Assembly (NCBI RefSeq): GCF_001672295.1
Contig: NZ_JXMS01000002.1
Span: 1 to 64,000, forward strand
Direction: 5' to 3'
Origin: Halodesulfovibrio spirochaetisodalis
Lineage (GTDB): Bacteria > Desulfobacterota > Desulfovibrionia > Desulfovibrionales > Desulfovibrionaceae
DNA length: 64,000 nucleotides
Below the pieces are notes generated by a model, which saw only the letters and a list, made by a program, of their open reading frames with translations, was not told the origin of the DNA and searched no databases. The first letter of the stretch is position 1, and each line of letters opens with the position of its first letter. Of this stretch, positions 27,801 through 32,351 are shown one piece after another. A program made the position numbers and the translations under genes.

Positions 27801-28553
27801 TTGTTATTTTTTCGCAATGCCAAGTTCTCTATAGCGACTAAGTTTGCTGTTGCTGCTGCTATTTTTTTCAGCTGCTCAGGGCTTATTGTTCTTTGTGTAC
27901 TGCTGATTTTAGCGGCAAGCTCTCCTCTGACGCCAGTGGATATTGTATGGCTTATGGCGTGCTGCGCAGCCATTACTGTTCCGTGCTTCTATTACTTGTT
28001 TAACAGGCTGTGTAGAAGCATCGTGTGCCGTCCTCTTGAAGAGCTTACACATACTGCTACAGAATTGGGCAGTGCTCCGCTACCTACCGAGATTCCAACA
28101 GAATTAGAACTGGATGCGCTGGCAATGGCGCTGGTTCGTTCCGGTGAAGTGTTCAGCAGGCGTATGCAGAATGCCACGGAACGTCGTTCTTACTTTGAAT
28201 CGTTATTCAAAGGGATGCCGGGATATGTTTCTGTTGTGGACACATCCTTTACTATTGTTCACGCAAATACCGCTTTTATGGAAACGTTTGCTATAGCGGA
28301 AGGGCGTTCCTGCAGGCATGTATGTACCCGTGAATTTCCCGGAGGCAACTGTCCTGTTGCTAAGGTTTTTATTTCAAAGGAACCTGTGGTTGTAACAGAG
28401 GAAGGAATGTATCCAGACGGTACAGCTGCGTTGTGGCTTGTGAGCGTTTCCCCCGTATTCGACTCTATCGGTAATCTGACCGCAGCAATTGAATCTCGTC
28501 TTGATATTTCTGAAGTCGTGAAACACGGCGTGACATCCCTGTACGGGACATAA
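27801..28553 (+). CDS. Membrane PAS-domain protein without kinase
   Basis: 250 aa from TTG (GGGAGAG upstream). Two membrane helices (about 15-38 and 48-68), a HAMP-like linker (CRPLEELTHTATEL), and a C-terminal PAS domain (FKGMPGYVSVVDTSFTIVHA, AFMETFAI). It has no histidine kinase, cyclase or methyl-accepting domain, so it would have to signal through a partner. Two Cys (CRHVC, GGNCPVAK) in the PAS could bind a cofactor; this is inference. Confidence 0.75.
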   Translation: MLFFRNAKFSIATKFAVAAAIFFSCSGLIVLCVLLILAASSPLTPVDIVWLMACCAAITVPCFYYLFNRLCRSIVCRPLEELTHTATELGSAPLPTEIPTELELDALAMALVRSGEVFSRRMQNATERRSYFESLFKGMPGYVSVVDTSFTIVHANTAFMETFAIAEGRSCRHVCTREFPGGNCPVAKVFISKEPVVVTEEGMYPDGTAALWLVSVSPVFDSIGNLTAAIESRLDISEVVKHGVTSLYGT

Positions 28554-28609: not shown

Positions 28610-28613
28610 TGTT

Positions 28614-28810
28614 CAAAAAAGAGCCCCCTGTAATCTGGGGGGGGATGATTACAGGGGGCAAGATTGGTTGGTCTGAATCTACGCCTCGGATCCAGAACTA
28701 TATCTGTAGGGGGGGGAAGTCAGACATAATTCCTACCGTATTCAGAACCTAAGCACGACGGTTGGTACGTTGGGGGGGGGGACGCCTAATCGCTGGCAAT
28801 CCAACCGTCG
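28614..28810 (-). ncRNA. Candidate sigma-54-dependent sRNA with three C-runs
   Basis: About 197 nt on the minus strand. Hairpin 1: perfect 10-bp stem 28801-28810/28756-28765 with a 10-C run in the loop. Middle element: C8 at 28709-28716, within a weaker structure (GTCTGA/TCAGAC or alternatives). Hairpin 3: perfect 13-bp stem 28647-28659/28623-28635, loop with C8, directly followed by TC and T6, i.e. an intrinsic terminator. It begins at a predicted -24/-12 promoter and contains no plausible ORF. C-rich loops are the usual targeting part of sRNAs that pair with G-rich ribosome sites. The RNA is inferred. Confidence 0.5.
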
Positions 28811-28815
28811 CAAAC

Positions 28816-28838
28816 ATTATAGCAGTAAGCGTGCCAAA
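28816..28838 (-). promoter_or_regulatory. Sigma-54 (-24/-12) promoter, overlapping a TATAAT
   Basis: Minus strand TTGGCACG, four bases, CTGCT: GG (28835-28834) and GC (28823-28822) are separated by exactly 10 bases as sigma-54 requires. The predicted start is 28810, the first base of hairpin 1. A TATAAT (28821-28816) would give nearly the same start with sigma-70 but lacks a good -35. Confidence 0.6.
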
Positions 28839-28934: not shown

Positions 28935-28982
28935 ATTGTGCGTTTTCGAACGTTCGGTTTCGCACATTGTGCAAAATCGAAC
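28935..28982 (-). promoter_or_regulatory. Putative activator binding sites (UAS), 31-bp period
   Basis: ATTGTGC-N4-TCGAAC occurs at 28935-28951 and again at 28966-28982, three helical turns apart. An inverted, slightly diverged copy lies between them (GTTCG...CGCACA). Position is about -125 to -172 from the predicted sRNA start, typical for enhancer sites of sigma-54 activators. It starts right behind the activator gene's stop. Confidence 0.55.
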
Positions 28983-28994
28983 ACTTGTGACCGG

Positions 28995-30470
28995 TTAGGA
29001 CAAGCGTCTATATAAAGCATATCTTGATATGCCAAGATAGGATGCAGTTTTACTTTTGTTACCGTTGAACTTTTTCAGCGCAGCGTGAATTACAGACTGT
29101 GTGAGATCTTCTAGACTGAACGGCGTGTCAGGGAGAATGATAGTTGATGAATTCACGTCGATTGAAGGCATTGCCCCAGATTCTGATAGAGATGGACTGT
29201 TTTCACGTGCTGATATTTGGGCAGACCGGTTTGTATTGAGAAACTCGATATGCTTCGGGCGTAATACGGTATCATCATGGATGAGTACTGCACGTTCGAT
29301 TGTGTTTTCAAGCTCTCTTACGTTACCCGGCCATGAATACTTTGAAAGTGTTTCGATTGTTTCCGGTGCAATGCTGGAAAAATTCTTCCCCTTGCGCACA
29401 ACTTGCTTGCGAAGGAATAACGCTGCCATTTCGGCAATGTCTTTTTGGCGTTCTCGTAATGGAGGCAAGCGTAAGTGACCTACTGTAAGCCTGTGGTACA
29501 GGTCGCGGCGAAAAAGCCCTTCTTCCACCATAAGCTCAAGGTTTTTGTTACCGGCTCCAATAATGCGGGCGGTAAATTCTTTTTTCTGTAATCCACCAAC
29601 ACGGTAAAAAGATCTGTCCTCAAGCACGCGCAATAACTTAGGTTGCAAATGAAGAGGCATTTCAGCAATTTCGTCAAGAAACAGTGTGCCGTTTCCTGCC
29701 AACTCCAACTTACCTGCAGAACCGCCTGCTCTAGAACCTGTGTACGCTCCTGCCTCATATCCGAATAGTTCGCTTTCAAATAAAGATTCTGCAATAGCAG
29801 AGCAGTTCAGCGCAACAAAGGGTCTGTCACAATGGGTATCCCCATGATGAACAAGACGTGCTATGACCTCTTTACCCGTTCCTGTTTCTCCTTCAATAAG
29901 AATTGGAACATCTGGTTCATGGTGGAATATGGTTGCGTCGCGGATGACTTCCTGCATGCGTTGGGAGCCGGAAATGATTTCACCGATTCCTGAAACATTT
30001 CGAAGCTGGGAACGCATTTTTTCAAGATCTTCCTGTAAAGACTCTTTTGCCAGCGCAACCCGTTCTTCCATATTTTGCTTTAAGTCCTTGTTCTCAAAAA
30101 GCAGGTTCTGGTGCTCAAAGCTGCGTTCAACCACAGCTGCAAGTTCTCGTGCGTTGATAGGCTTATTCAGGTAGTCGTATGCGCCATTGCGCAATGCTGC
30201 GATGGCTGTATCCATATCTCCATGACCGGTGATAATGATAACATCGCTGCGCTTACTTGTTTCGCATGCTTTCAGTTCTGCGAGTAAAGACAGTCCATCA
30301 AGCATAGGCATTTTAATATCTGTGATAATCAGCGGGTAATAGCTTTCTTTGGCGTGGTTAAGCGCAGCGACAGGATCACTGAAGGTGCTTGGCTGGTGAC
30401 CCAAGTCTGTCAGAACAACACTAAGGCTTTGTAAGCTGGTTGGATTGTCATCAACAATAAGAATTCGCAT
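28995..30470 (-). CDS. Sigma-54-dependent response regulator (NtrC/DctD-type)
   Basis: 491 aa: receiver domain with phospho-acceptor D51 (IITDIKMP), AAA+ domain with Walker A GETGTGKE (194-201) and Walker B LFLDEIAEMP, and a C-terminal Fis-type HTH (NKSKTASYLGISRYALYRRL). The sigma-54 contact loop is GAYTGS (241-246) instead of GAFTGA, a mild deviation. Last gene of a kinase-kinase-regulator operon (9 nt after the kinase). The putative UAS, sigma-54 promoter and sRNA lie directly downstream and are its likeliest target. Confidence 0.93.
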   Translation of the reverse strand: MRILIVDDNPTSLQSLSVVLTDLGHQPSTFSDPVAALNHAKESYYPLIITDIKMPMLDGLSLLAELKACETSKRSDVIIITGHGDMDTAIAALRNGAYDYLNKPINARELAAVVERSFEHQNLLFENKDLKQNMEERVALAKESLQEDLEKMRSQLRNVSGIGEIISGSQRMQEVIRDATIFHHEPDVPILIEGETGTGKEVIARLVHHGDTHCDRPFVALNCSAIAESLFESELFGYEAGAYTGSRAGGSAGKLELAGNGTLFLDEIAEMPLHLQPKLLRVLEDRSFYRVGGLQKKEFTARIIGAGNKNLELMVEEGLFRRDLYHRLTVGHLRLPPLRERQKDIAEMAALFLRKQVVRKGKNFSSIAPETIETLSKYSWPGNVRELENTIERAVLIHDDTVLRPKHIEFLNTNRSAQISARENSPSLSESGAMPSIDVNSSTIILPDTPFSLEDLTQSVIHAALKKFNGNKSKTASYLGISRYALYRRLS

Positions 30471-30479
30471 ACCACTCTC

Positions 30480-32351
30480 TTAAACAGTCGTAGCCTGAGG
30501 CAATAAAATAGTAATAAGTGTCCCTTTATTATCTGCAAGTGGGGAGGTTGCTGTTATTGTCCCTTCCCAGCTGGTGACGAACGTATGTACCAATGCGAGT
30601 CCTAGCCCCATGTTTTTTCCTGACTCTTTTGTAGTAAAAAATGGATCGAAGATTTTTTCTCCAAGTCCGTTGAGTCCAGGGCCATTATCTTCAATGCTGA
30701 GCAGAACAGTGTCGTTATCTGTTTCGCAGGTTGTCACGGTAATTTCTTTGGCACCGTCGATAGTCTCTAGGGCGTGAACTGCGTTCATCACGATATTGAT
30801 GACAATTTGTTCCAACTGGATAGGTAACGCGAGCACCTTGGGCAGATTTGGTTGTAACTTCGTGCGTAGTTGAATATTGCGCGTTTCCAGTTTGCTTTGC
30901 AGCAAGGTTACTGCTTGCAGCACTGCCGCATTGGTGTCCGAGGGTTGTAACGGGAAAGCACCTTGATGCCGGACAAGTGAACGCATATGCGTAATAATGT
31001 CTTCGATTGTAGCTGTTTCCCGTAAAATCCACTCAAGTCGTTCTTGCAAAATGTCTATGGGGACTGTTCCTCGTTGTTCAACCATTAAATCCAACCCGCT
31101 TGCATACAGACGTAATGCAGAAAGGGGCTGATTGATTTCATGGGCGATACCCGCCGCAAGCGTGCTCATGGCTTCGAGCTTGCGCATCTGCTGTGTGCGA
31201 AGGGCTATCTTTTTCTTTTCGGTAATATCTTCAAGAAGAATAATTGCTGAGGAAAATTGTTTAGTTCGATGCAGAGGACACGCTGTGATACGGAATGTGA
31301 CTTCCGTGTCATTCAAGGTAGTAGAAAACTCACATTCATGCTCTTTCCCATCGTTAAGGGTAAGGCTTGCCGTTTTATCCAGTACGCATTCACCGTTTTC
31401 ATCTTCAAGCGTAAGCGGTTGCGGACAGCTGACAGGGTATGATTCGTTATGGATAGTGAACCAGTTACGGAACTGCCGGTTTGCGGCGGTAATATTTCGT
31501 TGCCCGTCCACAACAGCAATACCAAGGGATAGGTTGTTTGTAATGAGATGGTACTGACGTTCTGTAATGGCCAGTTTTTCCTGAAAACGGGTGAGCTGAG
31601 TAATGTCCAGACCCATGAGCAGGATAAGCTGTTCACCGTCCGTATCTGTAAATGGATAGCTTAAAAAACGGTATGAACGACCGGAGCGTGGACTTTTCCA
31701 CGCAGAGAAAGAAGGAGAACCAGTTTCAAACACATCAAACGGTGGTAAGTACGGATGTGTTGGTGCCTCTGCCGACTCGGTGTTTCCGGTGAAAGCGCTG
31801 TAGCAGGAGTCGCCGACAGAGAGCTGTACCTGTTCACGGAACGGTTTGTTAATATAGCGAAGTGTAAATTGCGGAGTCACCAGAGCGACAAATTCAGGAA
31901 GTTTATCCAGAATAGCCAGCAGGTTCAGTCGTTGTCGATCAGACTGATTTTTTCTCGGATACGTGTCAGAGCCAAGAGAGAGTGTACTGCTTATGATCTT
32001 GTCGCCGCCGGAAAGGCGTAACGGGCGAGGGTGTACTAATATTGTGACCCGCTGCCCGTACATGTCATTAAAAAATAGAGGAAAAGAACTGATCTTACCT
32101 TTTTTTTGGAGCACCATATGGTGTGAGATAGTAGCTAAATTTTCTGGTTCAACTAACTGGGCTTTCAGGTTGGGCAGAACATCTTTACGCGACCAGCCCA
32201 GCACTGACGATAAAAAGCTGCGTACATAGTCCAGATCAAGGCTTTGGTCAGATGAGCAGGTATCGCTGAGTTGGCGTAGCAAGTTGGAGACAGCTTCCGG
32301 TAACAGGGAAGAAGTGAATAATGGTATTTGGGGTGGCTGTAGTTGAGCCAT
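30480..32351 (-). CDS. Cytoplasmic sensor histidine kinase with PAS domains
   Basis: 623 aa, no membrane segments. Two PAS-like regions (KLPEFVALVTPQFTLRYIN; NLSLGIAVVDGQRNITAAN), a HisKA dimerisation helix with AGIAHEINQPLSAL near residue 400, and HATPase motifs N (NIVMNAVHA), G1 (SIEDNGPGL) and G2 (GLGLALVH). Predicted partner of the adjacent sigma-54 regulator. The signal is internal, perhaps redox or a metabolite, because there is no periplasmic domain. Confidence 0.92.
   Translation of the reverse strand: MAQLQPPQIPLFTSSLLPEAVSNLLRQLSDTCSSDQSLDLDYVRSFLSSVLGWSRKDVLPNLKAQLVEPENLATISHHMVLQKKGKISSFPLFFNDMYGQRVTILVHPRPLRLSGGDKIISSTLSLGSDTYPRKNQSDRQRLNLLAILDKLPEFVALVTPQFTLRYINKPFREQVQLSVGDSCYSAFTGNTESAEAPTHPYLPPFDVFETGSPSFSAWKSPRSGRSYRFLSYPFTDTDGEQLILLMGLDITQLTRFQEKLAITERQYHLITNNLSLGIAVVDGQRNITAANRQFRNWFTIHNESYPVSCPQPLTLEDENGECVLDKTASLTLNDGKEHECEFSTTLNDTEVTFRITACPLHRTKQFSSAIILLEDITEKKKIALRTQQMRKLEAMSTLAAGIAHEINQPLSALRLYASGLDLMVEQRGTVPIDILQERLEWILRETATIEDIITHMRSLVRHQGAFPLQPSDTNAAVLQAVTLLQSKLETRNIQLRTKLQPNLPKVLALPIQLEQIVINIVMNAVHALETIDGAKEITVTTCETDNDTVLLSIEDNGPGLNGLGEKIFDPFFTTKESGKNMGLGLALVHTFVTSWEGTITATSPLADNKGTLITILLPQATTV

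Follow-up and report, generated by a model that had tools for sequence, protein, structure and literature searches.

In the LuxO-Qrr system of Vibrio, a sigma-54 activator adjoins a sigma-54-driven RNA. The motifs of CrcZ in Pseudomonas are A-rich, and the loops of ar14 (RF02344), an RNA of Alphaproteobacteria, carry the anti-Shine-Dalgarno sequence CCUCC. For the actinobacterial 6C/B11 RNAs (RF01066), we know of no control by sigma-54. In the excerpts used here, 6C/B11 RNAs comprise two hairpins with C6-C8 loops (PMC10470900, PMC4046766), one of the two C-loops of B11, no matter which, is enough for repression of a G6-leader reporter (PMC10470900), and the title of a cited study describes 6C RNA as chaperone-independent. 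The CbrAB-CrcZ system of Pseudomonas, as excerpted, consists of a sigma-54 response regulator gene followed by the sigma-54-dependent RNA that it activates, with CrcZ sequestering Hfq/Crc (PMC8871633).

The closest circuit is that of DVU0679, a GAYTGS-bearing regulator of Desulfovibrio vulgaris Hildenborough. According to the relevant passages of PMC3333781 and PMC4641369, its target on tiling arrays and DAP-chip is the downstream ncRNA Dv_sRNA2, the function of which was given as unknown in 2011; sites are also predicted downstream of DVU0679 orthologues in D. vulgaris Miyazaki and strain G20, and a second regulator in the same table, DVU0653 (GAFTGA), has a downstream ncRNA as well. The window analysed here, a stretch of 64,000 nucleotides from Halodesulfovibrio spirochaetisodalis (contig NZ_JXMS01000002.1, positions 1 to 64,000), shares with this circuit a GAYTGS response regulator and, in both the window and its homologues, a sigma-54-promoted ncRNA read from the sequence directly downstream of the regulator gene. 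The window regulator is probably the DVU0679 orthologue, an assignment based on the GAYTGS fingerprint (PMC4641369) and the layout rather than on an alignment; the excerpted passages give neither the sequence nor the loops of Dv_sRNA2, with which we infer the window RNA to correspond.

At gathering thresholds, no Rfam family is found at the locus. A permissive search of the window RNA returns only 6C and 2dG-II, both sub-threshold, with 6C at 25.2 bits against a gathering score of 47 (E 0.22). The window RNA shows the 6C trait of hairpins with at least six C in the loop, and this likeness to an RNA of another phylum is likely convergent. Among relatives of the window RNA, the permissive search gives sub-threshold hits to ar14, BjrC80 and three other families. 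The ar14 model has no match in the window RNA; it reaches 32.0-34.3 bits, against a gathering score of 58.8, only in L188 and L199 of the 17 loci searched, where it falls on the second and third of the tandem RNAs of genus g9 (L188) and on hairpins of genus g11 (L199). No description of these poly-C loops was found in the limited collection of literature searched.

The poly-C-loop locus and its fold

The only runs of eight or more C in the window lie on the minus strand at 28637-28644, 28709-28716 and 28772-28781. They amount to five overlapping C 8-mers, a number reached in 0/100 shuffles (mean 0.49). The three runs of 10, 8 and 8 named in the sequence-only reading are confirmed. All three are predicted to be unpaired inside stem-closed elements of a putative sRNA of about 200 nt (28612-28810, minus strand), supported by its fold, its covariation and a model match at 28611-28814, with the 5' end derived from the -12 element. 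The minus-strand fold of 28812-28610 has an energy of -71.2 kcal/mol (z = -4.77), which none of 200 shuffles equals.

The RNA is predicted to form three hairpins. In H1 (28756-28810, minus), a 10-bp stem (28801-28810 with 28756-28765) encloses an inner GCC/GGC hairpin and the C10 run at 28772-28781. H2 (28694-28733, minus) has a stem of 13 bp including G-U (28721-28733 with 28694-28706) and the loop ACUUC8UA, with C8 at 28709-28716; it is closed by a near-invariant long-range helix, identified from the alignment, between GGnUCUGAAUAC and (GUAGA)UUCAGACC (28670-28749, minus). H3 (28614-28659, minus) consists of a 13-bp stem (28647-28659 with 28623-28635) with a C8 loop at 28637-28644, followed by the T-run CTCTTTTTT, and bears out the earlier assignment of the last stem as an intrinsic terminator. 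The earlier description of stems of 10 and 13 bp likewise holds, while its placing of one C-run in a weaker element does not, the stem of H2 being 13 bp with G-U and all three runs lying in good stems. When each of the 50 C/G runs of at least 7 in the whole genome is scored for an enclosing simple stem (G-U allowed), stems of at least 8 bp surround only the runs of H2 and H3 (13 and 13); the other 47 runs reach at most 7 bp, and the H1 run scores 4 because of its inner hairpin.

No conserved ORF is found at the locus, where the overlapping mechanical ORFs measure only 21-47 aa and the length of the C-runs differs among relatives, in agreement with the earlier statement that no ORF explains it. 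A peptide encoded in the RNA was considered and rejected, as the 9-codon frame in H2 has no start codon in L009. Beside the sRNA lies the convergent gene of a PAS-domain protein (27801-28553, plus strand), a homologue of which adjoins the RNA in 6/10 loci of the genus, ours included.

Conservation of the RNA, its promoter and its regulator

An sRNA homologue occupies the same place in 10/10 genomes searched of the genus (g1); BLASTN finds long relatives in six of these, our own included, and short same-place matches in the other four. A covariance model built from the ten aligned genus sequences (R1) and run against 288 family genomes recovers the ten themselves and, in a second genus (g43), five genomes (E 9e-10 to 2e-13), each with the match downstream of an orthologue of the regulator. 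Its one other match, in G141 (E 0.0045), lies away from any regulator orthologue, has no loop array and was rejected. A second model, R2, searched against 348 genomes of the order, gives 20 matches, of which 17 are genuine loci, two of them (G073, G075) outside its training set. The remaining three (G062, G211 and G086; E 0.014-0.016) are spurious, none standing beside a regulator orthologue or bearing a loop array; the G062 locus offers no more than a receiver-type stretch of 31% identity and a single hairpin, terminator-like, whose loop is C5. Among the loci listed from a GAYTGS-block scan of named genomes, 80 loci in all and belonging to other activators, R2 has no matches. The homologues thus number 17, ten in the genus and seven in g43, all downstream of an orthologous NtrC-type regulator gene; in an eighth g43 genome listed, the contig ends just past the regulator. 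This comparative evidence supports the initial placing of an sRNA beside a sigma-54 activator gene.

C-runs of 6-10 stand at equivalent places in these 17 genomes of two genera. By folding, the three main C-runs of the 17 homologues are 0.84-1.0 unpaired, compared with 0.37-0.46 over the whole RNAs, and the g43 RNA has an additional C6-C7 run outside the hairpins, predicted to be 0.34-0.87 unpaired. At three g43 loci (L048:1902-2062, L049 and L051), the sRNA is followed, after about 80-210 bases, by an FMN riboswitch scoring above the gathering score.

The covariation search that the sequence-only reading had proposed shows stems that covary strongly. In a 15-sequence alignment, which was fitted to the structure of R1 and therefore favours it, 93.7% of cells are paired, against 33-43% with the partners slid, and double changes occur in 23/44 pairs, against at most 8 when slid; 0/500 shuffles attain any of five covariation measures. 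A plain MAFFT alignment of the ten genus sequences gives double changes in 18/44 pairs. Helix 1 (H1) changes on both sides in 7/10 pairs, and helices 4 and 5 (H2) do so in all 11, with helix 4 pairing in 77.9% of cells. The long-range helix is invariant in 7/11 pairs and hence offers little covariation to judge by. Single-sequence minimum-energy folds mostly match the consensus, with L038 and L044 each swapping out one helix.

Directly upstream of H1, every homologue carries TGGCA(C/T/A)N6TGC, a motif that doubled as the search anchor. In the window, the putative sigma-54 -24/-12 promoter is TGGCACGCTTACTGC (28822-28836, minus), present in conserved form in 17/17 homologues and also the search string used. 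It is the single occurrence of TGGCACN6TGC in the window, and shuffles contain a mean of 0.59, with at least one in 46/100; the promoter claim, already made from the sequence, therefore rests on conservation. A TATAAT located 3' of the -24/-12 element was rejected as a sigma-70 -10 box, the exact hexamer being present in 1/10 genus sequences (ours). Further upstream, conservation marks three tandem GTGCGN4CGCAC-like sites (28938-28982, minus), placed at about -115, -129 and -146 relative to the -24 element; in the window, two of them deviate from the pattern by no more than 1 mismatch. The triplet recurs with at most 2 mismatches in 15/15 loci, and two later g43 loci also have three sites; the distances to the -24 element are about 115-120, 129-134 and 146-152 bp, and 140, 154 and 172 in L047. 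The -24 element itself sits 147-185 bp past the regulator stop in g1 and 212-214 bp past it in g43. The palindromes are expected to be activator sites of the regulator; binding of the regulator upstream of the ncRNA is reported in the literature for D. vulgaris.

By domain and motif reading, the regulator (28995-30470, minus) is an NtrC-family response regulator with a receiver, an AAA+ domain with GAYTGS and a Fis HTH. Its probable partner is a PAS histidine kinase encoded at 30480-32351 on the same strand. The window regulator has GAYTGS, as do all 17 g1 and g43 orthologues read; the tie of the motif to the RNA is loose, since the orthologues of g9 and most of those of g20 have GAFTGS.

C-rich RNAs behind regulator orthologues of other genera

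Orthologues of the regulator, defined by score (E at most 1e-150) and not by a tree, occur in 43/285 family genomes. The downstream DNA was read for 40 of the 43 (30 loci and 10 fetched; three g20 genomes were left out). Poly-C hairpins are present in 23/40 loci: ten in g1, six in g43, two in g9, one in g15, two in g16 and two in g11. A CCUCC-bearing RNA behind a sigma-54-like promoter is seen in 6/40, all among the nine g20 loci read. In 9/40 loci (two of g20, one of g18, four of g55 and two of g3) no such RNA is seen, and in 2/40 the contig ends.

In g9, g15, g16 and g11 (7 loci), the poly-C hairpins downstream of the regulator are built on different scaffolds. Their main C-runs are predicted to lie in loops, with a few runs paired, notably in terminator stems. 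Judged from these sequences, the stems vary among genera and the C-rich loops are kept. In g9, C-loop sRNAs form tandem arrays of two (L185) or three (L188), and a separate -24/-12 element precedes every copy; the runs are C4-C6, and upstream sites precede at least the first two RNAs. In g16 and g11 (L198-L201), an ORF of 114-170 aa lies between the sigma-54-like promoter and the poly-C hairpins. These small ORFs belong to no Pfam family above cut-off, with one of the four receiver-like at 28.7 vs 30.2 bits, and the transcript may be an mRNA with the C-loop array as its 3' portion. The -12 element of g11 is weak (TTGT).

The g20 promoters and motifs were read with a loosened pattern without shuffle control. 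The CCUCC stretch of these RNAs is complementary to the Shine-Dalgarno sequence and resembles the anti-Shine-Dalgarno loops of ar14; it is 0.89-0.97 unpaired in five loci and 0.64 in L193, where it lies outside the loop of the minimum-energy fold. In L187, L189 and L191, the CCUCC-loop RNA and the regulator gene lie on opposite strands and converge, the RNA having a promoter-like element of its own.

Proposed action, rival explanations and candidate targets

The favoured reading, held with a probability of about 0.65, is a sigma-54-dependent sRNA whose C-loops would act as antisense on G-rich ribosome sites in the manner of 6C/B11; on this analysis, the earlier idea of C-rich loops as seeds would be the best-supported mechanism. 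The active kinase and response regulator would switch on the RNA by binding the three tandem sites, which lie about 115-150 bp upstream, a step suggested here by comparison and published, in the excerpts, for the GAYTGS regulator of D. vulgaris. The RNA would then fold into hairpins, for which the evidence is comparative, presenting C8-C10 as single strands, an exposure that is predicted and conserved, and its own terminator would end it. Each C-run may block translation by pairing with a run of G located in or close to a ribosome-binding site, and several equivalent loops would provide redundancy and a wide target set. Action would most likely be Hfq-free, as in actinobacterial 6C/B11; no Hfq match is found in the window genome by a search that is positive in 5/14 control genomes.

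CsrB is a decoy for CsrA, and poly(C) is the classical ligand of Rho. The main rival to the antisense reading, though an unlikely one, is a decoy in which the repeated C-loops titrate a protein favouring C-rich RNA, as CrcZ does for Hfq/Crc; Rho is a conceivable client. Such a decoy accords with the presence of multiple equivalent loops whose scaffolds vary freely from genus to genus, with the tandem multiplication of RNAs in g9 and with the order of kinase, sigma-54 regulator and RNA, which is that of cbrA-cbrB-crcZ in the excerpted PMC8871633. It is opposed by the lack of an Hfq match in the window genome, by the absence of any known client protein, by the B11 precedent, which is antisense in the excerpts available, and by the g20 stretch CCUCC(U), which fits Shine-Dalgarno pairing and so speaks for the antisense reading. 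Against the latter stand the regulator orthologues of g18, g55, g3 and two g20 loci, which lack such an RNA, and, for a simple ribosome-site model, the mode of action of PmaR in Agrobacterium, an RNA with a C-rich loop that, in the part of PMC6234868 consulted, mostly activates and acts mostly away from ribosome sites.

The parallel to LuxO and Qrr drawn in the sequence-only reading survives as a layout, a sigma-54 activator adjoining a sigma-54-driven RNA, and fails as homology. The LuxO model, whose cut-off is 800 bits, gives the regulator a score of 295.5, there is no Rfam Qrr match at the locus, and Hfq has no match in the genome; a Qrr-type quorum-sensing RNA under a LuxO orthologue, already disfavoured, is thus highly improbable. 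Nearer parallels are DVU0679/Dv_sRNA2 in circuit, CbrAB-CrcZ in layout, and 6C/B11 and ar14 in loops. That there is no RNA gene at all, only chance homopolymers or sequencing errors beside the terminator of a convergent gene, hardly deserves credence: homopolymers are error-prone and the gene at 27801-28553 does end nearby, but the conservation of C6-C10 runs in 17 genomes with covarying stems contradicts an artefact, and no comparable stem surrounds any other C/G run of at least 7 in the genome.

Candidate targets were sought among G6 runs located 3-10 nt before an ATG in two genomes, our own and G001. There are 66 in our own genome against 39 for the reversed pattern, and 45 against 33 in G001, which by count is no more than a mild enrichment, and G-rich sequence is in any case usual at ribosome sites. 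In our own genome, 59 of 63 distinct places were examined, four copies of one repeated string being left out, and in G001 43 stretches covering 44 places. Frames of at least 30 codons, not all of them genes, follow in 26 cases (24 distinct places) and 18 cases, respectively. The string GGGGGGACGGGAGATG recurs on contigs C4, C20, C33 and C40 of G000, no more than a few hundred bases from an end on C4, C20 and C33, and is probably part of a repeated element or rRNA operon.

Three orthologous pairs with 64-65% identity emerge: a giant VCBS/cadherin adhesin, a UbiA-family prenyltransferase and a protein without known family (first 136 residues). The adhesin, a giant VCBS/cadherin-repeat protein with the start UAGGGGGGGAAUCAUG, is one candidate target and the best lead, though a lead only. 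Its G6-G7 ribosome site is kept in 6/6 genomes that have the gene, with N-terminal proteins 59-66% identical to ours. Its N-terminus is not found in four GC-rich members of the genus that keep the RNA, so the adhesin cannot be the only target. The predicted duplex between the H2 loop and the adhesin ribosome-binding site has an energy of -22.1 to -24.5 kcal/mol, compared with -8.6 for one made-up ordinary Shine-Dalgarno site, and the leader folds on itself with -7 to -9 kcal/mol. In the leaders of the VCBS adhesins L258-L263, the G-run is predicted to be able to pair with a UUCC(C) that precedes it and so to mask the ribosome site, a fold that may possibly act in self-regulation independent of the sRNA. 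The strongest predicted duplex, -25.7 kcal/mol, belongs to a 148-aa protein with a G7 start, which was rejected as a target because the G-run is conserved in 0/5 others; duplex energy therefore does not single out real targets. A chemoreceptor has G6-G7 in 3/4 close orthologues, ours included, and G6 in 1/6 more distant homologues. The biology of adhesins in D. vulgaris is treated in PMC13090378, PMC11784015 and PMC5646257, as excerpted.

A broader proposal, which remains tentative and somewhat doubtful, is that poly-C loop arrays make up a class of RNAs spanning the lineage and governed by one orthologous sigma-54 response regulator, with the exposed C-rich loops as the main thing kept between genera. 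Such RNAs might act as a chaperone-free, multivalent master switch on G-tract ribosome sites (with CCUCC in one genus) that controls surface attachment, or might be the first RNA to serve as a decoy for a protein that binds poly(C).

To our knowledge, little work has been done on post-transcriptional control in these bacteria. The circuit from regulator to downstream ncRNA is partly known already through DVU0679 and Dv_sRNA2; the present analysis proposes a testable mechanism for an ncRNA of the DVU0679 type and shows that C-rich loops recur on unlike scaffolds behind a single regulator. The design, if chaperone-free, would resemble that of mycobacterial B11 in a distant phylum. In conclusion, if the adhesin lead is true, attachment and biofilm formation, both relevant to metal corrosion, would be linked to a two-component signal.
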